A stretch of DNA of 64,000 nucleotides from contig CAMVEB010000003.1 of assembly GCA_947166385.1 (NCBI GenBank), positions 62,001 through 126,000 of the forward strand, written 5' to 3'. Source of the stretch: an uncultured Clostridia bacterium. GTDB lineage: Bacteria > Bacillota > Clostridia > Christensenellales > Aristaeellaceae. Position 1 is the stretch's first letter, and every line of letters starts with the position of its first letter. Position numbers and translations under genes: made by a program. Below the pieces are notes generated by a model that had not been told where the DNA came from, ran no database searches, and was given only the letters and a program-made list of their open reading frames with translations. Positions 521-22,018 of this stretch are shown in pieces.

Positions 521-550
521 CTTGACATATGTCAAGTATTTTGATATCCT
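521..550 (+). promoter_or_regulatory. Promoter overlapped by a 16-bp palindrome
   Basis: The -35 TTGACA (522-527) and -10 TATCCT (545-550) are separated by 17 bp, 21 bp before the ATG at 571. The -35 lies inside a perfect palindrome, CTTGACATATGTCAAG (521-536). A repressor bound there would block RNA polymerase, as expected for a self-regulated toxin-antitoxin-type operon. The HTH domain of the second gene in the operon is a plausible binder (inference). Confidence 0.6.
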
Positions 551-570: not shown

Positions 571-1389
571 ATGGAACAAATCATTCATGAACTCCAGGAC
601 ATGACCCATCTGAGCTGGGCCAAAGCGAGAAAATCATCCGGTACTGCCGGGTCTTTTCTGAAGGCGTATGAAGAAACGTCACACGGAAAAGTCTATTATA
701 AGCTGTCCAATTATGACGCGTGGCGCGGAATCATCGGGCATGAATGTGTCAATGAAATCATTGTGGACCGCCTCCTGACAATCCTGGGAATTGATCATCT
801 GCACTATCAGCTGATCCATGCAAAGATTCTGATTGATCAGAAGGAGCATGAAACCTGGATGTGCGCCTCGGATGATTTCAAGCAGCGGGGCGAAAGCAAG
901 ATTGCCCTGGATGCCTATTATCAGGCAGAACGCCTGCCGGAGGAATCCCCTCTGGACTTTTGCCTCCGCGCCGGCTGGAAAAAAACAATCTATGAAATGC
1001 TGGTGGTGGATTATCTGATCCTCAACAGGGACAGGCATGGGGCCAACATGGAGGTCCTGCGCAATCCAAAGCAAAAGACAGTGCGGCTGGCTCCCCTGTT
1101 TGACCACGGACTATCCCTGCTCAGCCGGTGCGAAAGTCAGGCGGCCATGCTGCATGAAGACGTGATGGCGGACAAGCCGGTGCAGTGCTTTGTCGGTTCC
1201 CGCTCTGCGCGGGACAATCTGAAGCTGATCCCCGCTGATGAGCGGCCGCAGTTGCAGACGCTGACGGTGCGTGACCGGGATATATTGCTGGACGGTCTTT
1301 CGGATGCGCTGGACAGTACATGGCTGAACCGGATCTGGGAGATGATCTGGAGGAGGTGGCAGGCGTATGAGAATTTTTGCAATCCGTGA
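571..1389 (+). CDS. HipA-type Ser/Thr kinase core without N-subdomain 1
   Basis: The protein has 272 residues, against about 440 for classical HipA. A glycine-rich loop with serines lies at residues 21-31 (KSSGTAGSFLK), a probable ATP-contacting lysine at K44 (YYKLSNYD), the catalytic loop LNRDRHGANMEVL at 151-163 (D154, N159), and the DFG-equivalent LFDHG at 176-180 (D178). These are the HipA/CtkA kinase signatures; known members phosphorylate tRNA synthetases or other translation factors. The short N-terminal subdomain of HipA is missing, as in HipT of HipBST systems. The gene starts at ATG 571 behind a strong promoter and overlaps the next gene by 23 bp, so translation is probably coupled. 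The substrate is unknown. Confidence 0.75.
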   Translation: MEQIIHELQDMTHLSWAKARKSSGTAGSFLKAYEETSHGKVYYKLSNYDAWRGIIGHECVNEIIVDRLLTILGIDHLHYQLIHAKILIDQKEHETWMCASDDFKQRGESKIALDAYYQAERLPEESPLDFCLRAGWKKTIYEMLVVDYLILNRDRHGANMEVLRNPKQKTVRLAPLFDHGLSLLSRCESQAAMLHEDVMADKPVQCFVGSRSARDNLKLIPADERPQLQTLTVRDRDILLDGLSDALDSTWLNRIWEMIWRRWQAYENFCNP

Positions 1390-2185
1390 TGAGAGTCTGT
1401 CGCCGGATACACTGCTGGGATACCTGATCTATTATGAACGAGCCAAAGCCTTCTATATCGAGCTGCCGGACGAGGCCGACCCATGGGAGATTCCTTTGCT
1501 GCTGTCATCTTTCGCAAAGCGCGGAGAGCACTCCGTCGGCAGTTACTGGAGCCATCTGTGGGTACAGCAGCGGATCATCCCACAGGACCGACAGAACATC
1601 GGACAGGTTCTGAAGGAAAACGGACTTATCGAATATGATGAGTTTGGGCTGCTGATGCTCACCATGGGCCGTTGCGCGCAGGATGACTGTTACCTGGAGG
1701 AAATCAACGCTGCTCAGCTTCCGAAGCTGCTGCTGGAAAGATGGAAGACAAAAATCGAAGATGTAGTGCCGCTGCAGAATATCAGGCTGCTGATCTTTTT
1801 CCGAAACGGCGAAGTGAAAATGGCGGACATGCGGGGGTTCGCTGATTTTCATGCGGATTGCAGACCCTACCTTTCCCGGGAAGAACGATTCAATACGGTA
1901 GAGGTTCAGCCGGACGGATACGGCGTTTTCTGGAGTGAACGCGCCATGATCCCGGACCGGGAGCTCTATGAAAAAAGCCAGCCGGTTCCGCTTACACTGG
2001 ATGACTTTATCGGTTTTGTGCAGCACAGAGTCGTCAGCACCAACGAAGCCTGCCAGATTCTGAACTGCAGCCGGCAGAACATTGATGACCTCATGAAGCG
2101 AGGCAAACTGCGTCCGATCCGGCAGGATGCCAGAAATAAACTCTTTCTCCGGAATGAGATCACACAACGCAGGCAGCAATCATAA
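1367..2185 (+). CDS. HipA N1-like (HipS-like) protein with C-terminal excisionase-type HTH
   Basis: The protein has 272 residues and its ATG lies inside the kinase gene (23-bp overlap). Residues about 1-110 read like HipA N-subdomain 1: a strand-rich start, then a polar segment, IIPQDRQNIGQVL (70-82) in the place of the family's LLPxxxxR block, and DEFGLLMLTMGRCAQDDC (91-108) in the place of the DPFxLLxxxGxDCxGA block. The middle (110-220) is unrecognised. Residues 222-272 form an excisionase/MerR-like HTH (STNEACQILNCSRQNIDDLMKRG). Inference: this is the cognate antitoxin and autorepressor of the kinase, combining HipS-like and HipB-like roles in one polypeptide. The N1 match is by eye and needs a structure or profile test. 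Confidence 0.55.
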   Translation: MRIFAIRDESLSPDTLLGYLIYYERAKAFYIELPDEADPWEIPLLLSSFAKRGEHSVGSYWSHLWVQQRIIPQDRQNIGQVLKENGLIEYDEFGLLMLTMGRCAQDDCYLEEINAAQLPKLLLERWKTKIEDVVPLQNIRLLIFFRNGEVKMADMRGFADFHADCRPYLSREERFNTVEVQPDGYGVFWSERAMIPDRELYEKSQPVPLTLDDFIGFVQHRVVSTNEACQILNCSRQNIDDLMKRGKLRPIRQDARNKLFLRNEITQRRQQS

Positions 2186-3846: not shown

Positions 3847-4902
3847 ATGCGAACACTGAACGACAGAGAAACCTATCGGAAACTGCTGACACCGGAGATT
3901 GTCTCCTATCTGGCACAGATCCATGAGCAGAAGGGTCAGCAGAACCTGTTTATTGAAGCTCACCAGGATGAACTGTCAGAGTTGTTGGAGATCGCGAAAA
4001 TTCAGAGTACAGAAGCATCCAACCGGATTGAAGGAATTATAACGACGGATGAGCGCCTGAAGAAGATTGTCCGGAACAAAACCGCGCCGAGGAACCGCAG
4101 CGAACGGGAAATCGCCGGATACCGGGATGTATTGGCTTCCATCCATGAGAATTATGATTATATGCCGCTTCGCCCCGGGATGATTCTCCAGCTGCACCGG
4201 GATTTGTATAAGTACAGCAATTCCGCCATCGGCGGAAACTATAAGAACAGTGACAACATCATTGCTGAAGAACAGCCGGACGGAAGCAAACTGGTACGGT
4301 TCCAGCCGGTATCAGCCTGGGAAACACCGGAAGCGATGGAAACGCTCTGTAACGAGTTCAATGAAGCCATGAAAGACCCGAACATGGATCCGCTCCTCCT
4401 GATGCCCATCTTTATTCTGGACTTCCTCTGCATTCATCCTTTCCATGATGGAAACGGAAGAATGAGCCGGCTGCTGACACTGCTGATTCTGTATCGGTCC
4501 GGATACATTGTCGGCAAGTATATCAGCCTGGAAAAACTGATCGCGGACAGCAAGGAAGACTATTATGAAGCTTTACAGGACAGTGATGCCGGATGGCATG
4601 TGGGAGCGAATGACTATCTGCCTTTTGTCCGGTATATACTGGGGATTATCATTGCGGCATACCGGGATTTCACGGATCGGGTGCAGATCCTGATCACCAG
4701 AGGGTTCTCCAAACCGGATCGGGTGAGGGAGATGATCCGGAATACCACCGGAAAGATGACAAGGAAAGAGATCATGGCACAGTGCCCGGATATCAGCCAG
4801 AGGACTGTGGAACGGACATTAATCAGCTTACAGGAAAGCGGAGAGATTATCAAAATCGGCGGCGGGCGCTATACATCCTATATCTGGAACAGAGGTGACT
4901 GA
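3847..4902 (+). CDS. Fic-family protein (class II, autoinhibited)
   Basis: The protein has 351 residues. The Fic core motif [12 protein letters not shown] (197-208) is complete, with the catalytic histidine H197 and the phosphate-binding GNGR. An N-terminal inhibitory helix motif SNRIEG (58-63) fits the (S/T)xxxE(G/N) rule, with E62 expected to block ATP gamma-phosphate placement. The C-terminus (about 275-351) is a winged-helix-like segment ([25 protein letters not shown]). Fic enzymes transfer AMP from ATP onto protein hydroxyls; the target is unknown. It is the first gene of the type I restriction operon, with its stop 2 bp before the hsdM ATG, so it may regulate or guard that system (inference). 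Confidence 0.9.
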
Positions 4903-4904
4903 AT

Positions 4905-6407
4905 ATGATTACCGGCGAACTGAAAAACAGAATCGACAGCATCTGGGAGATCTTCTGGACCGGCGGTCTGACCAACCCGCTGGACGTCATTGAGCAGATG
5001 ACCTATCTCATGTTCATCCATGACCTGGATGCTGCCGATACGCTGCGGGCCAGGGAAAGCGCGATGCTGGGCCTGCCCTTTGAGAGTATCTTCGCGGAGG
5101 AAGTGCAGATCGGAACGCAGACGGTGGACGGCACTCAGCTGAAGTGGAGCGTGTTCCATGATTTCCCCGCGGCAAAGATGTACAGCGTCATGCAGGAGTG
5201 GGTTTTCCCGTTTATCAAGAACCTGCATGGAAACAAGGAAAGCGCCTACTCCAAATATATGGGCGACGCGATCTTCAAGGTGCCCACCCCCCTGATGCTG
5301 GATAAGATCGTAACCGCGATGGATGATATGTATGAGCAGATGGCGAAGCTCAGTGATACGGACGCCCGTGGCGACGTCTATGAGTATCTGCTTTCGAAAC
5401 TGTCCACCGCTGGCGTGAACGGCCAGTTCCGGACGCCAAGGCATATCATTCGGATGATGGTGGAGCTGATGCAGCCCCAGCCGGACGACCTGATCTGCGA
5501 TCCCGCCTGCGGTACCTCCGGGTTCCTGGTGGCTGCCGGGGATTACCTGAAGGAGAACCGGAAATCCGAAGTCTTCTTCAACAGGGAAAACCGGGAACAC
5601 TATATGAACGATATGTTTACCGGCTTCGATATGGACCGGACCATGCTCCGGATCGGCGCCATGAACATGATGACCCATGGCGTTGAGAATCCCTTCATCG
5701 AATACCGGGACAGCCTGAGCGACCAGAACCCGGATCGCGAAAAATACTCTCTGATTCTGGCCAATCCTCCCTTCAAAGGCAGCCTGGACGCGGAAACCGT
5801 GAGCACCGATCTGCTGAAAGTCTGCAAAACCAAGAAAACGGAACTGCTGTTCCTGGCGCTTTTTCTGAAGATGCTGAAGATCGGTGGAAGATGCGCCTGC
5901 ATTGTTCCGGACGGCGTGCTGTTCGGATCCTCCACCGCACATAAAGCGATCCGGCAGGAGATCATTGATCATCACCGGCTGGAAGCGGTCATCTCGATGC
6001 CGTCCGGGGTCTTCAAGCCCTATGCCGGCGTCAGCACCGCCGTGCTGATCTTTACCAAGACGAACCACGGCGGAACGGATAAGGTCTGGTTCTACGATAT
6101 GAAGGCGGACGGTTTCAGCCTGGATGACAAACGCAGCGAAACCAAAGAAAACGATATTCCGGATATCATCGCAAGATTCAGGAACCGGGACCAGGAGGAA
6201 GAACGCAAGCGCACAGAGCAGTCCTTCCTGGTGCCGAAAGATGAGATCGTCCAGAATGATTACGACCTGTCCATCAACAAATACAAGCAGACGGAATATA
6301 AACCCGTGGAATATCCGCCGACCATTGAAATCATGACGGAACTGCGGGAACTGGAAATGAAGATCGGCGAAGAGATGGACGAGCTGGAAAAACTGCTGGG
6401 GCTTTAA
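4905..6407 (+). CDS. hsdM: Type I restriction-modification DNA methyltransferase subunit M
   Basis: The protein has 500 residues. The N-terminal helical HsdM_N region is followed by the methylase core: AdoMet motif [12 protein letters not shown] (199-210) and catalytic NPPF (287-290), the form found in N6-adenine methyltransferases. The length is standard. With two M and one S subunit it methylates adenines in a bipartite target to mark self DNA. It starts 2 bp after fic, so co-translation is likely. The C-terminal coiled stretch ([18 protein letters not shown]) probably contacts HsdS. Confidence 0.95.
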
Positions 6408-6436
6408 AGCAGGAACAGCAGAAAGAGAGCAGACGG

Positions 6437-7291
6437 ATGAATCAGGACAATATACAGATATACGACAATCAGCTGATCCGGACGGCGTGGGACGAAGAAA
6501 ACGAGGAATGGTACTTTGCCATTGTCGATGTTATTCGTGTATTGACAGAAAGCCCTAATCCTCAAACCTACTGGCGTGTAATGAAAAAACGTCTGAAAGA
6601 TGAGGGAAATGAAACCGTTACAAATTGTAACGCTTTGAAATTGAAAGCCGTCGATGGAAAAAAGCGTCTGACAGATGTGGCCAATACAGAACAGCTCCTG
6701 CGTCTGATTCAATCGATTCCATCCTCAAAAGCCGAGCCATTTAAGCTCTGGTTGGCGCAGGTTGGACGGGAACGCATTGAGGAAACCATTGATCCGGAAC
6801 TTTCCATTGATCGGGCACTGGAAACCTACGCGCGGCTTGGGTATCCGGCGGACTGGATCAATCAACGGCTGCAGGCGATTCGAGTCAGAAAAGAGCTGAC
6901 TGATCAGTGGAAATCCCATGGCGTTCAGCAAGGGAAAGAATATGCGATCCTGACTAATGAGATCACCCGGGCATGGTCTGGGATGAGCACCCGTGAGTAC
7001 AAAAACCTGAAAGGGCTGAGGAAAGAAAACCTCCGGGACAACATGAGCACGCTGGAGCTGGTGCTGAACATGCTGGCCGAAGCCACCACGACCGAACTTA
7101 CAAAAGTGCAGAATCCCAAAGGATTGCAGCAAAACAAAGAAGTTGCCAAAGAAGGCGGAACCGTTGCGGGAAACGCCCGGAAGGATATCGAGCAACGTAC
7201 CGGACAGCCAGTGATTACCGCGGAGAACAGGACACAGTTAAGCCGGGTGGTAATGGATCTGCTTATGGACGCAGAAAGCAACCAGGAGTAG
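6437..7291 (+). CDS. BRO-N domain protein (DinD/antirepressor-like)
   Basis: The protein has 284 residues. The start, IYDNQLIRTAWDEENEEWYFAIVDVIRVL, and the later KLKAVDGKKRLTDVANTEQLLRLIQSI, are the Bro-N domain of baculovirus/phage BRO and antirepressor proteins. The C-terminal part (GKEYAILTNEITRAWSGMSTREYKNLKGL) resembles DinD-type DNA-damage-inducible proteins. It lies between hsdM and hsdS in the same direction, a place where RhuM/DinD-type cargo genes are known to occur. Its role is uncertain: DNA binding or modulation of the restriction complex. It is not a normal subunit of the enzyme. Confidence 0.8.
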   Translation: MNQDNIQIYDNQLIRTAWDEENEEWYFAIVDVIRVLTESPNPQTYWRVMKKRLKDEGNETVTNCNALKLKAVDGKKRLTDVANTEQLLRLIQSIPSSKAEPFKLWLAQVGRERIEETIDPELSIDRALETYARLGYPADWINQRLQAIRVRKELTDQWKSHGVQQGKEYAILTNEITRAWSGMSTREYKNLKGLRKENLRDNMSTLELVLNMLAEATTTELTKVQNPKGLQQNKEVAKEGGTVAGNARKDIEQRTGQPVITAENRTQLSRVVMDLLMDAESNQE

Positions 7292-7321
7292 GACAAAATC
7301 GGATTTGCGGGGGTTGATGGG

Positions 7322-8482
7322 ATGGCAAAATATAGGCTTGGAGAGGTAGCCCCAATACAACAGAGTATACCACCGATGGAATATCCTTGTTGGCTACTCA
7401 ATCTCGATATGGTCGAAAGCAATACAGGAAGAATACTGGAATACGTGTATGTTCAACCTGACGAGATCGGTTCATCAACTGTTTCTTTCAACACCGATAA
7501 TGTGCTTTATTCAAAGCTGCGCCCATACTTGAATAAGGTGGTTTTACCAGATCGGGCAGGCTTTGCCACTTCCGAGATGCTGCCGTTAAGGCCAGATACA
7601 ACGATCATCACAAGAGAATACTTAACATATTTTCTTCGTTCGCCACATTTTGTCGGATACATCAATGACAAAACGAGTGGGGCAAAAATGCCAAGAGCTA
7701 ATATATCTGACCTGAAAGCTGTTGAAATAGAATGTCCTTCCCTTGAGAGACAAAAGACAATTGTTGGAATATTCGAGCACTTGACGAATATAATTGATCT
7801 CTATCAACGCCAGCTCCTCGCCCTTGACACCCTCATCAAGGTCCGTTTTGTCGAGATGTTTGGAGTGCCTGAACTCAATTCTATGGGATGGCCTACCGAA
7901 ACACTTGGTAATCTGTTGAGCGTGGAACCACAGAATGGTCTTTACAAACCACAATCTGATTATGTACAAGACGGAACCGGCACGCCTATTCTTCGCATAG
8001 ATGCATTTTATGATGGAAAAGTCACAAGCTTTTCTGGGCTCAAACGATTAAACTGTACAGAATCTGAAAGGATTCGATATCTTTTGCATGAGAATGACAT
8101 TGTTATCAATCGAGTGAATAGTATTGAATATCTCGGGAAATGTGCGTGGATAAAAGGAATGTCAGAACCTACTGTTTTTGAGTCGAACATGATGAGATTC
8201 CATATTGATGAATCTCGAATCGATCCGTGCTACCTAACAAGATTACTATGTTCAACATTTATCTATAACCAGATATTAGTCAGAGCGAAAAAGGCGGTCA
8301 ATCAAGCAAGCATTAATCAAAATGACGTTCAGTGCTTTTCTATAATTGTTCCGCCAATTGAATTGCAAAAACAATTTGCAGTATTTGTTGCTCGGATTGA
8401 CAAATCAAAAGTTGCTGTGCTGGCAGCACTGGACAAAGCGCAGTTGCTCTTCGACAGCCTGATGCAGCAGTATTTCGGTTGA
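7322..8482 (+). CDS. hsdS: Type I restriction-modification specificity subunit S
   Basis: The protein has 386 residues with the expected layout: target-recognition domain 1 (about 1-135), a central conserved helix (LERQKTIVGIFEHLTNIIDLYQRQLLALDTLI), target-recognition domain 2 (about 185-330), and a distal conserved helix (PPIELQKQFAVFVARIDKSKVAVLAALDKAQLLFDSLMQQYFG). The two recognition domains each read half of a bipartite DNA target. Base composition is clearly more AT-rich than hsdM and hsdR, as often seen where recognition domains have been swapped in by recombination. Its TGA lies within the ribosome binding region of hsdR. Confidence 0.92.
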   Translation: MAKYRLGEVAPIQQSIPPMEYPCWLLNLDMVESNTGRILEYVYVQPDEIGSSTVSFNTDNVLYSKLRPYLNKVVLPDRAGFATSEMLPLRPDTTIITREYLTYFLRSPHFVGYINDKTSGAKMPRANISDLKAVEIECPSLERQKTIVGIFEHLTNIIDLYQRQLLALDTLIKVRFVEMFGVPELNSMGWPTETLGNLLSVEPQNGLYKPQSDYVQDGTGTPILRIDAFYDGKVTSFSGLKRLNCTESERIRYLLHENDIVINRVNSIEYLGKCAWIKGMSEPTVFESNMMRFHIDESRIDPCYLTRLLCSTFIYNQILVRAKKAVNQASINQNDVQCFSIIVPPIELQKQFAVFVARIDKSKVAVLAALDKAQLLFDSLMQQYFG

Positions 8483-8492
8483 GGTGATGACC

Positions 8493-11400
8493 ATGACCAA
8501 CTTCGATTTCCTCCTGTCTGTGCCGGACTTCGTCCCTTTCGGGGAAGTTGCAACGGCGGCGGAAAAGATCTATCCCATTGACCCGGCGGCCTGCGTGCTG
8601 AACTGCCGGCGGGCGATGGAGTTCGCTGTCAAATGGATGTATTCCGTGGATACCGCCCTTTCCATGCCCTGGGATGACAAGCTGGTCAGCCTGCTGAGCA
8701 CGGAGGAATTCCGGGACATTGTGGACGCGAACCTGATGCGTAGGCTTGAGTATATCCGCAAGGTCGGCAACTGCGCCGCCCATGAGGGAAAGAAGATTAC
8801 AAAGGAACAGGCCATGCTCTGCCTGCAGAACCTGTGGGTGTTCATGGATTTTGTGGCCTATTGCTACAGTTCGGACTATCAGTCCGGTGCCTTCGATCCT
8901 TCTTTGCCGGAACAGGCCGCCGCTCCGATGTATGCGGTTTCCCCGGAAACAGAGATCCGGCTGGCGCAGCTGATCGCCGAGAACGCCGCCCTGAAGGAAG
9001 AACTGACCGCCCGCCGGGAGGAACAGCAGGAAACCTATACGCCCAAGCCTCTTGACATCTCTGAATACAAGACCCGGAAACTGTATATCGATGTCATGCT
9101 GGAAGACGCCGGGTGGACAAAGGGCAGGGACTGGCTGGATGAAGTGGAACTGCCCGGCATGCCCAATCAAAGCGAAACCGGATATGCGGATTATGTCCTC
9201 TATGGGGATGACGGGAAGGCTCTGGCTGTCATGGAAGCAAAACGAACCTGCGTGGATGTGGCGAAGGGCCGCCAGCAGGCGAAGCTGTATGCGGATCTGC
9301 TGGAAAAGCAGTTCGGTCGCCGTCCGGTGATCTTCCTGACCAACGGATTTGAAACCCGGATCGACGACGGACAGTATCCGGAGCGCCGGGTGGCAGCCGT
9401 TTACAGCAAACGGGATCTGGAGAAACTATTTAACCTGCGCAAGACGCGGCAATCGATGACGCTGATCCATGTGGATAAGCAGATCGTCGGTCGGTATTAC
9501 CAGGAAGAAGCGATCAAGGCCGTTTGCGAAAGCTTTGACAAAAAGAACCGGCGCAGGGCTTTGCTGGTGATGGCGACCGGCAGCGGAAAAACCCGGACGG
9601 TCATCGCTCTGTGCAAGGTGCTGATGGAAAAAGGCTGGGTGAGGAATATCCTGTTCCTGGCGGACCGCAATTCCCTGGTGACCCAGGCGAAGCGGAACTT
9701 CGTCAATCTGCTTCCGGACTTGTCGGTGGTGAATCTGTGCGAGGATAAGACAAACTATACCGCACACTGCGTCTTCAGCACCTATCAGACAATGTTCAAC
9801 TGCATCGATACGGTGCAGGACGAGGACGGCGGTCGGCTGTTTTCCTGCGGACATTTCGACCTGGTGATCTGTGATGAGGCTCACCGGTCCATCTATCACA
9901 AATACCGGGATATCTTCAATTATTTCGACGCCCCGCTGGTGGGCCTGACTGCTACGCCCAAGGATGAGATCGACAAGAACACCTACGAAGTCTTTGAATT
10001 GCAAAGCGGTATACCGACCTACGGATATGAACTGGCCCAGGCGGTGAAGGATGGGTATCTGGTGGACTTCGTCAGCGTGGAAACCACCCTGAAATTCATC
10101 CAGGAAGGCATCGTATACGACGAACTGTCCGAAGAGGACAGGGAAGCTTATGAAAACACCTTTGAGGATGAGAACGGGGAACTGCCGGGAAGCATCTCTT
10201 CCTCCGCGTTGAACGAATGGATCTTCAACGAGGATACGATCCGGGAAGTCCTGCGGATCCTGATGAAGGAAGGCCTGAAGATCGACTACGGCGATAAGAT
10301 CGGAAAAACGATCATTTTCGCCAAGAACCATAAGCACGCGGAAGAGATCCTGAAGAACTTCGGAAAGGAGTATCCGCAGTATCCCGGCTGGACCAAGGTG
10401 ATCGACAACTATATGACCTATGCGCAGAGCGCGATCGATGAGTTTTCCGAACCGGACAAGCTGCCGCAGATCGCCATCTCCGTGGATATGCTGGATACCG
10501 GCATCGATGTGCCGCAGGTGCTGAATCTGGTATTCTTCAAAAAGGTCATGAGCAAGGCGAAGTTCTGGCAGATGATCGGGCGCGGAACGCGACTGTGCCC
10601 CGGATTGATCGACGGGGAAGACAAGAACAAATTCTATATTTTTGATTTCTGCGGGAACTTTGAATTCTTCCGGATGAACAAGGGAAAGGCCAACAACAAT
10701 ACGCTGGCTCTTTCGGCCATGCTGTTCAATCTGAAAGCGCAGATTGTTTACAAACTGCAGGATATGGCCTATCAGACGGAGGAACTGATTGATTTCCGGA
10801 AAACGCTGGTTCAGGAACTGCTGGAGAAAGTGCGGGAGCTCGACCGGGAGAACTTTGCGGTCAGGCAGCATCTGAAATATGTGGAGTTGTACAGCGATCC
10901 GGAAAGCTATCAGGCCCTGACCTATGAGAACACACTGGAAATGGCAGATGAATTAGCTCCGCTGGTACAGCCTGAACCGGAGGACGCAAAGGCATTGCGT
11001 TTTGACGCATTGCTGTACGGGATCGAACTGGCCTATCTGGCCGGGAAGAAGTATCCCAAAGCCAGACATGATCTGATCAGCAAGGTGCGGGCTGTCGCCG
11101 GAGTTGCCAATATTCCGGAAATCATGGCGCAGCAGGAACTGATTCAGAAAATCCTGAAAACGGACTATCTGGATCAGGCCGGGATCCATGAATTTGAACA
11201 GATCCGGGAAAATATCCGTGACCTGATCAAATATATCCCTGTGTCGAAAGCGATCTATCAAACGAATTTCGATGATCAGGTTTTGTCCATGACGTTCCAC
11301 GAATCCGAACTGGAAACCGATTATCTGGCAGATTACAAAGCGAAAGCGGAATACTATGTCCGTCAGCATCAGGACAACGAGGTCATTGCGAAACTGAAGA

Positions 11401-11789
11401 GCAATATCCCGCTGACGGAAGATGATGTGGCAGTCCTTGAAGGGATTCTGTGGAGCGAGGTTGGAACAAAGCAGGATTATGAGCGGGAGATCGGATCGGT
11501 TCCCCTGGGCGAATTTGTGCGAAGCGAGATTGGACTGGACATGACAGCGGCCAAGGCTGCCTTCGCGGATTACCTGGACAGCACACAACTGGACAGCCGA
11601 CAGATTTATTTTGTGAACCAGATTGTCGAATACATCGTCCATAACGGGATGATGAAGGATCTTTCGGTGCTGCAGCATTCCCCGTTTACGGATCAGGGCA
11701 GCATTGTGGAGATATTTACGGATCTTTCTGTCTGGGCGGGGATCCGGAAGGCCATTGAGCAGGTGAACGCAAACGCGACGGTTGCGTAA
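8493..11789 (+). CDS. hsdR: Type I restriction endonuclease subunit R
   Basis: About 1098 residues. The start ATG 8493 was preferred over GTG 8484 and ATG 8487 because GAGGTG (8481-8486) is then spaced 6 bp away. The domain order is: N-terminal DUF4145-like helical region, PD-(D/E)xK nuclease (GYADYVLYGDDGKALAVMEAKR, about 230-250), helicase motor with Walker A MATGSGKT (about 359-366) and DEAH box ICDEAH (about 462-467), helicase C lobe (DTGIDVP, QMIGRGTR), and an EcoEI-type C-terminal domain. It translocates DNA using ATP and cleaves unmodified DNA at distance. It is the last gene of the operon. Confidence 0.95.
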   Translation: MTNFDFLLSVPDFVPFGEVATAAEKIYPIDPAACVLNCRRAMEFAVKWMYSVDTALSMPWDDKLVSLLSTEEFRDIVDANLMRRLEYIRKVGNCAAHEGKKITKEQAMLCLQNLWVFMDFVAYCYSSDYQSGAFDPSLPEQAAAPMYAVSPETEIRLAQLIAENAALKEELTARREEQQETYTPKPLDISEYKTRKLYIDVMLEDAGWTKGRDWLDEVELPGMPNQSETGYADYVLYGDDGKALAVMEAKRTCVDVAKGRQQAKLYADLLEKQFGRRPVIFLTNGFETRIDDGQYPERRVAAVYSKRDLEKLFNLRKTRQSMTLIHVDKQIVGRYYQEEAIKAVCESFDKKNRRRALLVMATGSGKTRTVIALCKVLMEKGWVRNILFLADRNSLVTQAKRNFVNLLPDLSVVNLCEDKTNYTAHCVFSTYQTMFNCIDTVQDEDGGRLFSCGHFDLVICDEAHRSIYHKYRDIFNYFDAPLVGLTATPKDEIDKNTYEVFELQSGIPTYGYELAQAVKDGYLVDFVSVETTLKFIQEGIVYDELSEEDREAYENTFEDENGELPGSISSSALNEWIFNEDTIREVLRILMKEGLKIDYGDKIGKTIIFAKNHKHAEEILKNFGKEYPQYPGWTKVIDNYMTYAQSAIDEFSEPDKLPQIAISVDMLDTGIDVPQVLNLVFFKKVMSKAKFWQMIGRGTRLCPGLIDGEDKNKFYIFDFCGNFEFFRMNKGKANNNTLALSAMLFNLKAQIVYKLQDMAYQTEELIDFRKTLVQELLEKVRELDRENFAVRQHLKYVELYSDPESYQALTYENTLEMADELAPLVQPEPEDAKALRFDALLYGIELAYLAGKKYPKARHDLISKVRAVAGVANIPEIMAQQELIQKILKTDYLDQAGIHEFEQIRENIRDLIKYIPVSKAIYQTNFDDQVLSMTFHESELETDYLADYKAKAEYYVRQHQDNEVIAKLKSNIPLTEDDVAVLEGILWSEVGTKQDYEREIGSVPLGEFVRSEIGLDMTAAKAAFADYLDSTQLDSRQIYFVNQIVEYIVHNGMMKDLSVLQHSPFTDQGSIVEIFTDLSVWAGIRKAIEQVNANATVA

Positions 11790-20735: not shown

Positions 20736-22018
20736 TGGTAACCAAAATTGCCAATTAACCAAAAGGATTCGAAGCGTCACAAAGCGAATAGAATCAACGA
20801 GGAGAGGCACATTGGAGAAGATCAAAGTACTCTCGTTGGATCGAATAATGGAATTGTTCGAAGAGATACCAGATCCAAGACGTCCAGGAGGAAATATCCA
20901 GCACAAAATGGTAGATCTATTGGTCATCATTCTGCTGGGAGTAATCAGTGGATGCGAGACATGGATAGAGATAGAGGATTATGCTCACGCCAAAAACGAA
21001 TGGCTGAAGACATTCTTGGAGTTGCCGGGAGGCGTACCAAGCAATGATACATACCGGAGACTCATGACACGAATACTTCCCCAAAAACTGGAGGAAGCAT
21101 ACCGGCAATGGGTGCTTCCGTATGTTGGCGGATGTATAGGGAAACATATCGCAATAGACGGTAAAACAATATGCGCAGCCAGCAACTATCGTCTGAGCAG
21201 CGAAGAAACACCGGAGGGGAAGCTGCATATTATCAGTGCCTGGGTTAGAGAAGATGGGATTTCTCTTGGCCAAATTAAGACCGATGAGAAAAGCAATGAG
21301 ATTACGGCGATTCCCAAGATGCTGGACACAATGGATATTAAAGGAGCAGTAGTCACTATAGATGCAATGGGATGCCAAGTTGATATTGCTGAAAAGATCA
21401 TAGAACGGGAAGCAAACTATCTGCTGGCACTAAAGAAGAACCAGCCAAGTCTATATGAATCAGTGGAAGAGTATTTCAATTGGGCCAGAACGGAACCGAT
21501 AGAGAAGAAGCAACTGAAGGAATACAACTACGAAGATCACGAACATGGGCGCTATGTATATCGTACAATTGAAGTCTGTAATGATATCGCTTGGATCGAA
21601 ACCGTACGGGAATGGAAACAATTATCCTCAATAATATGTGTAACCAGAAAAGGCGAAAGAGAAGGCCGGAAGACCGAGGAAACGGCCTATTACATTAGCA
21701 GTCGCGAATGGGAAGCAGATGAGGTGGCAAAGCATATTCAGGGACATTGGACGATAGAAAACAATCTTCACTGGTCACTGGACGTTGCATTTAACGAGGA
21801 TAGCTCAAAGATTCATTTAGGATATTCAGCGGAAAACATCTCGATCATCAGGAAGATAGCCCAGAAACTATTAAAGGCCGAAACAACGTTCAAAGGTGGA
21901 AGCATTCGCAGAAAAGCAAGACGGGTTGCGCTGCTTAATGACTATGCTGAAAAAGTTCTGATGCTTGGTGATCAACTGTAATTTCAAAAATCGAGAGTCA
22001 GTTCTTGTTTGCTTACCA
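20736..22018 (+). mobile_element. ISAs1-family insertion sequence
   Basis: The element carries one transposase. Candidate ends are TGGTAACCAAA (20736-20746) and, inverted, TTTGCTTACCA (22008-22018), agreeing at 10 of 11 positions. The real termini probably extend several bases outward, since partial pairing continues. A convincing 8-10 bp target duplication was not found; AAATG occurs just outside both ends (20725-20729 and about 22026) but may be chance. The element is more AT-rich than its surroundings, in keeping with recent arrival. Confidence 0.65.
20812..21981 (+). CDS. ISAs1-family DDE transposase
   Basis: The protein has 389 residues with a TTG start behind GAGGAGAGG. The N-terminus FEEIPDPRRPGGNIQHKMVDLLVIILLGVISGCETW is the hallmark ISAs1 (H repeat-associated, DDE_Tnp_1-associated) opening. 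The catalytic acids can be placed as HIAIDGKT (first Asp), TIDAMGCQ (second Asp) and WTIENNLHWSLDVAFNED (Glu). The full family length and an undisturbed frame suggest an active element. Confidence 0.95.
   Translation: MEKIKVLSLDRIMELFEEIPDPRRPGGNIQHKMVDLLVIILLGVISGCETWIEIEDYAHAKNEWLKTFLELPGGVPSNDTYRRLMTRILPQKLEEAYRQWVLPYVGGCIGKHIAIDGKTICAASNYRLSSEETPEGKLHIISAWVREDGISLGQIKTDEKSNEITAIPKMLDTMDIKGAVVTIDAMGCQVDIAEKIIEREANYLLALKKNQPSLYESVEEYFNWARTEPIEKKQLKEYNYEDHEHGRYVYRTIEVCNDIAWIETVREWKQLSSIICVTRKGEREGRKTEETAYYISSREWEADEVAKHIQGHWTIENNLHWSLDVAFNEDSSKIHLGYSAENISIIRKIAQKLLKAETTFKGGSIRRKARRVALLNDYAEKVLMLGDQL

Follow-up and report, generated by a model that had tools for sequence, protein, structure and literature searches.

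We examined a 64,000-nt stretch of an uncultured Clostridia bacterium (contig CAMVEB010000003.1; hereafter the window), taken from an assembly of 4.33 Mb over 96 contigs, and focus here on two overlapping forward-strand genes near its start that we read as a putative kinase-first toxin–antitoxin (TA) module. The first gene (571..1389), delimited by its open reading frame (ORF) and by homologue alignment, encodes a HipA-type kinase core of 272 amino acids without an N1 domain. The second (1367..2185), assigned from its ORF and from domain and fold matches, encodes a partner of likewise 272 amino acids, a putative antitoxin-repressor of HipS-DUF2442-helix-turn-helix (HTH) architecture. A preliminary description of this DNA had proposed a kinase-core gene overlapping a downstream partner gene, and both are indeed present, with ORF coordinates placing the overlap at 1367..1389 (23 nt, forward strand).

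The first gene product has the features of the HipA-type kinase superfamily: a Gly-rich loop (SSGTAGSFLK, residues 22–31) and Lys44, a catalytic Asp/Asn pair in LNRDRHGANME (D154, N159), a metal Asp in FDHG (D178), and a predicted HipA/HipT fold. We take the catalytic, Gly-loop, and metal roles of these residues to be those of their HipA and HipT counterparts. Residues K44, N152, D154, H156, N159, and D178 are invariant in 51/51 family kinases, and the window kinase also matches CtkA at E 8.5e-7. Its predicted structure aligns with HipA only from HipA residue ~120, in keeping with the earlier suggestion that the first gene is a kinase core lacking N1. Modeled without its partner, the kinase has a pLDDT below 50 at residues 20–26.

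Three domains can be delimited in the partner, all on the forward strand: a HipS/HipA N1-like domain (residues 1–114; 1367..1708), found by profile comparison and by Foldseek on the predicted structure, a DUF2442 domain (residues 124–207; 1736..1987), and a winged HTH of the MerR/excisionase type (HTH_17; residues 215–272; 2009..2182). The preliminary description had likened the N-terminus to N1, the C-terminus to an excisionase-type HTH, and the whole to an N1-HTH fusion. The N-terminus is predicted to adopt a HipA-like fold whose best Foldseek match is HipA, and the C-terminus yields an HTH_17 match together with MerR/excisionase-type fold matches; the fusion claim stands insofar as both domains share one chain, but a DUF2442 domain intervenes between them. 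Conservation is highest over residues 59–116 (mean entropy 0.87, compared with 1.14 over 1–58 and 221–267, and 1.90 over 131–205).

This gene arrangement is widely kept. Among the best 80 of 133 stretches encoding partner relatives retained from a scan of genome contigs, 75 are directly preceded by a kinase ORF (68 full length, six cut by a contig end, and one, L087, a truncated remnant), with an overlap of 23–38 nt (26 nt in 61) and an identical relative reading frame in all 75; the remaining five comprise four loci without a kinase core (L097, L101, L107, L116) and one at a contig end (L110). Comparison of the window with L053 points to purifying selection on both the partner (nonsynonymous rate dN 0.123, synonymous rate dS 1.417) and the kinase (dN 0.122, dS 1.262), with dN/dS of ~0.09–0.10, though synonymous change is close to saturation, and dS exceeds 1.8 or is undefined in several of the eight comparisons made. 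The weak Pfam scores of the single sequences could be taken to mean that these are two unrelated neighboring genes or a decaying remnant; given the overlap kept in 75/80 loci, the low dN/dS, and catalytic residues invariant in 51/51 kinases, we reject chance neighbors and pseudogenes as having practically no likelihood. The genes flanking the module vary, the longest ORFs of at least 80 amino acids within ~2 kb, some of which may not be genes, falling into 55 clusters for 59 upstream ORFs and 48 clusters for 54 downstream ORFs.

Upstream of the kinase lies a perfect 16-bp palindrome, CTTGACATATGTCAAG (521..536), which emerged as a candidate operator from a genome motif scan and family dyad counts and contains the -35 hexamer of a candidate forward-strand promoter (522..550; TTGACA at 522–527, a 17-nt spacer, and TATCCT at 545–550, with TG before the second hexamer). 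The promoter candidate matches 10/12 consensus positions and by itself is not above chance (2 in the region vs 1.6 in shuffles), and the exact palindrome, also when A or T is allowed at the inner arm position, occurs at a single site in the 4.33-Mb genome. We counted the dyad CTTG[AT]C-N4-G[AT]CAAG in the 150 bases that precede the estimated start of the kinase in the window and L053–L133 (82 loci, of which 13 were dropped for missing kinase, start, or upstream DNA, leaving 69). It is present exactly in 48 regions, with at most one mismatch in 60, and with at most two in 67, against means of 0, 0, and 0.9 in 20 dinucleotide-preserving shuffles. Restricting the count to the two symmetric forms gives 20, 59, and 66 regions; four coding windows yield no more than 2 such dyads at two mismatches. 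Since the left arm partly coincides with the -35 box, the argument rests on the right and outer arms; the outer eight bases per side pair at 3.80 within a locus and at 3.08 when swapped between loci (maximum of 500 swaps, 3.53). The dyad begins a median of 57 bases ahead of the kinase start, and a plasmid locus independent of motif building (L206) carries TTTGACGCGCGTCAAA 51 bases before its kinase. The proposal that the roles of HipS and HipB are merged in one downstream protein is supported, and the conserved dyad over the promoter strengthens it.

Two further features of these upstream regions deserve mention. In six loci (L103, L105, L109, L111, L127, L133), a second dyad, CTTGTC-N4-GACAAG, lies 32–33 bp upstream of the main one, a spacing pattern that suggests cooperative binding, and in three others (L085, L093, L115) the dyad arms extend to 19–21 bp, beyond the expected need of one winged HTH dimer.

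The two genes are also lost unequally. A partner lies beside the kinase in 10/10 genomes with a full-length family kinase in a 100-genome sample of relatives (a tally that excludes genomes with only distant HipA-like matches) and in 9/9 genomes with a kinase at E ≤1e-20 in a class-wide sample of 391 genomes, together 18 different genomes, as G000 is common to both samples. Conversely, the kinase core is lost beside a full-length partner in 5/73 loci with complete upstream DNA (L097, L101, L107, L116, L087), and all five keep the dyad (≤1 mismatch) and the tail of the kinase gene. One genome (G407) retains part of a partner gene and gives no match to the kinase. Such a pattern is consistent with a toxin–antitoxin pair. 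The pair might instead comprise a signaling or regulatory kinase and a DNA-binding adaptor, with the kinase phosphorylating the partner or one host regulator to control transcription at the operator, but loss of the kinase core with partner and dyad kept, and the lack of any family kinase without a partner, are what a TA pair predicts, and the HipS-fold partner and the differing neighbors likewise speak against a signaling role, which we consider improbable.

Taking together the predicted domain folds, gene overlap, purifying selection, dyad conservation, and unequal gene loss, we consider it quite probable that the locus is a two-gene, kinase-first type II TA module in which a bare Hip kinase is paired with an N1 lid and a putative repressor carried on one downstream chain. 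Several points weigh against this interpretation. Some of the 18 kinase-anchored genomes also appear among the 80 loci, which makes the two tallies dependent on each other, and the 18 include one partner frameshifted before the HTH (G034) and two that consist of HipS alone (G194, G239); another genome, G032, which holds pieces of the two genes, was not counted in the relatives tally. Three of the five core-loss loci (L097, L101, L107) are near-identical and represent one loss event, leaving approximately three events overall. No Foldseek match of the partner N-terminal fold reaches E 0.001 (HipA, the best, is at 1.9e-3), direct profile comparison with five classical N1 sequences (L137, L161–L164) gave no match (0.1%), and a profile of single-chain-kinase N-termini matched neither HipN (1.5%), the HipS-like partner of the hipIN system discussed below, nor the classical sequences (0.2%). 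The position of HipS Trp65 is occupied by an invariant Arg (R75) in the partner family, a correspondence based on aligning the PEGW motif of E. coli HipS over P-x-D-R and not on structure. Finally, a terminator scan also scored the dyad at 519–538 as terminator-like; we set aside a role as terminator of the upstream gene, as upstream ORFs vary between loci and the position of the dyad is constant. The partner N-terminus is tied to HipS/N1 by predicted fold and via HipN.

HipA-type kinases are the classic toxins of persistence, and the way in which their N1 lid acts as a switch is a matter of continuing debate. We infer the binding and inhibition of the kinase by its partner, DNA binding by the HTH, toxicity, target, and trigger as follows. 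In the resting cell, the HipS-like domain of the partner would sit on the N-terminal lobe of the kinase near the Gly-rich loop and hold it inactive, while the C-terminal winged HTH, through DUF2442 and probably as a dimer, would occupy the palindrome that spans the -35 box, thereby repressing the operon. Loss or displacement of the partner would then free the kinase to phosphorylate its target, arresting growth and derepressing the operon. By analogy with HipA and HipT, that target may be a tRNA synthetase. Two studies describe HipS as blocking HipT through the Gly-rich loop (PMC10627512, PMC9325769), and Trp65 is reported to be essential in E. coli HipS (PMC10627512). With R75 in place of Trp65, the blocking detail must differ, and lid-type inhibition would employ a wedge residue other than Trp. 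Because lid and putative repressor share one chain in this family of mostly gut and rumen Clostridia, lid binding and promoter control should be separable by domain.

The preliminary description knew of no account of such a layout. This needs qualification, as ten Hip organizations are described in PMC8262856, among them two kinase-first ones with a downstream HipS-type partner, hipIN (HipI kinase and HipN, a HipS-like domain with HIRAN) and hipJS (HipJ kinase and HipS); the DUF2442-HTH version nonetheless looks new. The word DUF2442 is absent from the main text of PMC8262856, the literature searched (which excluded paywalled articles and the supplementary tables of PMC8262856) yielded no account of a HipS-DUF2442-HTH partner, and the one paper retrieved for DUF2442 together with HipA mentions the two separately. 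The window pair is a conserved, real variant of kinase-first Hip modules in a combination we have not found described. It differs from hipIN in bearing DUF2442 and a winged HTH in place of HIRAN: HIRAN is absent from the Pfam matches of the window partner at E ≤1, where DUF2442 and HTH_17 appear instead, and from the 25 Pfam families listed for 51 family partners, whereas it was detected in the partners of L138 and L139 (2.7e-12 and 2.3e-11), which served as positive controls. In a tree of kinases (built from 36 submitted rows, less L049), the kinases with DUF2442-HTH partners and two with HipS-only partners form one clade (99/99), with hipIN and CtkA-like kinases outside it, subject to a long-branch warning that applies above all to L153.

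Relatives with HipS-only partners (L160 in genome G194, L153 in genome G239) resemble hipJS, and may have arisen by loss of the DUF2442-HTH cassette, or the cassette may have been gained; the window partner, in contrast, has a HipS domain with DUF2442-HTH added. hipBST shares the separation of a bare kinase from a HipS-fold partner on another chain and has an autoregulating HTH component, but we ruled it out because it has three genes, hipB leading and hipT last, where the window has two genes with the kinase first, joins HipS and putative repressor in one chain, and uses a MerR/excisionase-type rather than Cro-like HTH. hipBA, in which N1 and kinase form one chain after an Xre-type HipB, was likewise ruled out by the N1-less kinase, the downstream partner, and the HTH type. 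Two other loci, L047 and L049, each have a single ORF (471 and 463 amino acids) in which an Xre-type HTH at the N-terminus is followed by an N1-like part and a kinase, which by our reading would be HipB-HipA fusions. CtkA, a Helicobacter pylori kinase, has to our knowledge no HipS-type partner, and the CtkA-like kinases of the genus branch apart from the window family.

The hipIN comparison also raises the question of phage defense. The L138 and L139 pairs match PADLOC PDC-M03A/B at E <1e-99 and have hipIN domains (Couple_hipA over cut-off and HIRAN), and PMC8262856 proposes an abortive-infection role for hipIN. The window module could similarly act in abortive infection, with the DUF2442-HTH partner as a sensor that frees the kinase upon phage infection, which would be compatible with the TA mechanism. 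Its kinase and partner are remote relatives of PDC-M03A/B (E 4.7e-11 and 0.0045, the latter match weak and confined to partner residues 68–108), all 51 family partners examined give a PDC-M03B match at E ≤1, the strongest at 3.5e-7, and genes read by eye as Fic and type I restriction-modification (R-M) genes adjoin in the window; the PDC pair is itself a candidate, and we regard the defense role as possible but rather unlikely. A PDC-M03B search of the source genome gave no match, nor did its positive control match anywhere, so this negative carries no weight; a literature search for PDC-M03 found nothing.

DUF2442 itself leads to another toxin family. Of nine DUF2442 matches with open frames of 147–159 amino acids, seven have a DUF4160-like gene directly upstream (L018, L184, L186, L187, L191, L194, L016); in L189 this gene is broken across two frames, and in L195 it is incomplete. 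Pfam supports the calls in L018 and L186 (DUF4160 at 1e-22 and 1.4e-22, DUF2442 at 2e-11 and 1.7e-11, with HTH_59), the other DUF4160 calls are by eye, and L016 looks Xre-type. By raw count, 6/9 loci have a palindrome 48–52 nt upstream of the first gene. It is of the type TCACG-N4-CGTGA before the DUF4160-like start in L018, L184, L186, L187, L191, and L194, and is likely, judging from sequence, the operator of these DUF4160-DUF2442-HTH modules. In Dickeya, dhiTA (DUF4160/DUF2442) has been tested as a TA pair in which the toxin gene comes first and the antitoxin represses its own promoter (PMC8198452). The window pair resembles it in placing the toxin candidate first and a DUF2442 protein second, with a palindrome upstream of the first gene as in dhiTA-type loci of related Clostridia, but the palindrome sequence is another, the gene upstream of the window partner is a kinase rather than DUF4160, and dhiTA lacks a HipS domain. 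Because DUF2442-HTH adjoins DUF4160 toxins and dhiTA provides a precedent, the partner resembles a HipS lid joined to an antitoxin cassette from a different toxin family, although which way this fusion went is our inference, and its makeup suggests that one DNA-binding cassette serves two unrelated toxins. More speculatively, and with somewhat less than even confidence, such antitoxins may arise by cassette swap, DUF2442-HTH providing operator binding and perhaps trigger sensing and a detachable HipS lid providing toxin specificity, which would amount to an eleventh Hip organization and could allow Hip/DUF4160 cross-regulation in one cell.

Most of the 80 named partner matches come from uncultured Clostridia of gut and rumen, the closest (81% identical) being RUG199, an uncultured Clostridiales bacterium; two of these loci belong to metagenome-assembled genomes that carry the labels Synergistaceae (L088) and Succinatimonas (L076), through either transfer or misbinning. 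In a phylum-wide sample, a kinase at E ≤1e-20 was found in 3/398 genomes, all three of the class. Viral contigs gave no match to the single partner sequence, one match to the partner alignment (L136), and three to the kinase alignment (L133–L135), L135 and L136 being the same contig. One viral contig (L134:3986–4501) has, behind the dyad, a 172-amino acid ORF joining kinase profile positions 2–83 to partner positions 185–271. A phage search gave one distant kinase match, in an unannotated record, and a plasmid search matched the partner twice, with 91% of the query covered in one case; in the single annotated plasmid record examined, kinase and partner are both labeled 'hypothetical protein'.

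Around the module, genes assigned by eye encode a Phd/YefM-like antitoxin and a RelE/ParE-like toxin directly upstream (L205:9609–10222, ending at window position 222), apparently placing two TA-type pairs in tandem. Also by eye, we recognize a Fic gene (3847–4902), type I R-M genes (M 4905–6407, S 7322–8482, R 8484–11789), and a BRO/DinD-like gene between M and S (6437–7291), so that 3847–11789 resembles a defense-island setting. Farther downstream, an ORF at 20812–21981 looks like an ISAs1/IS4-type transposase.
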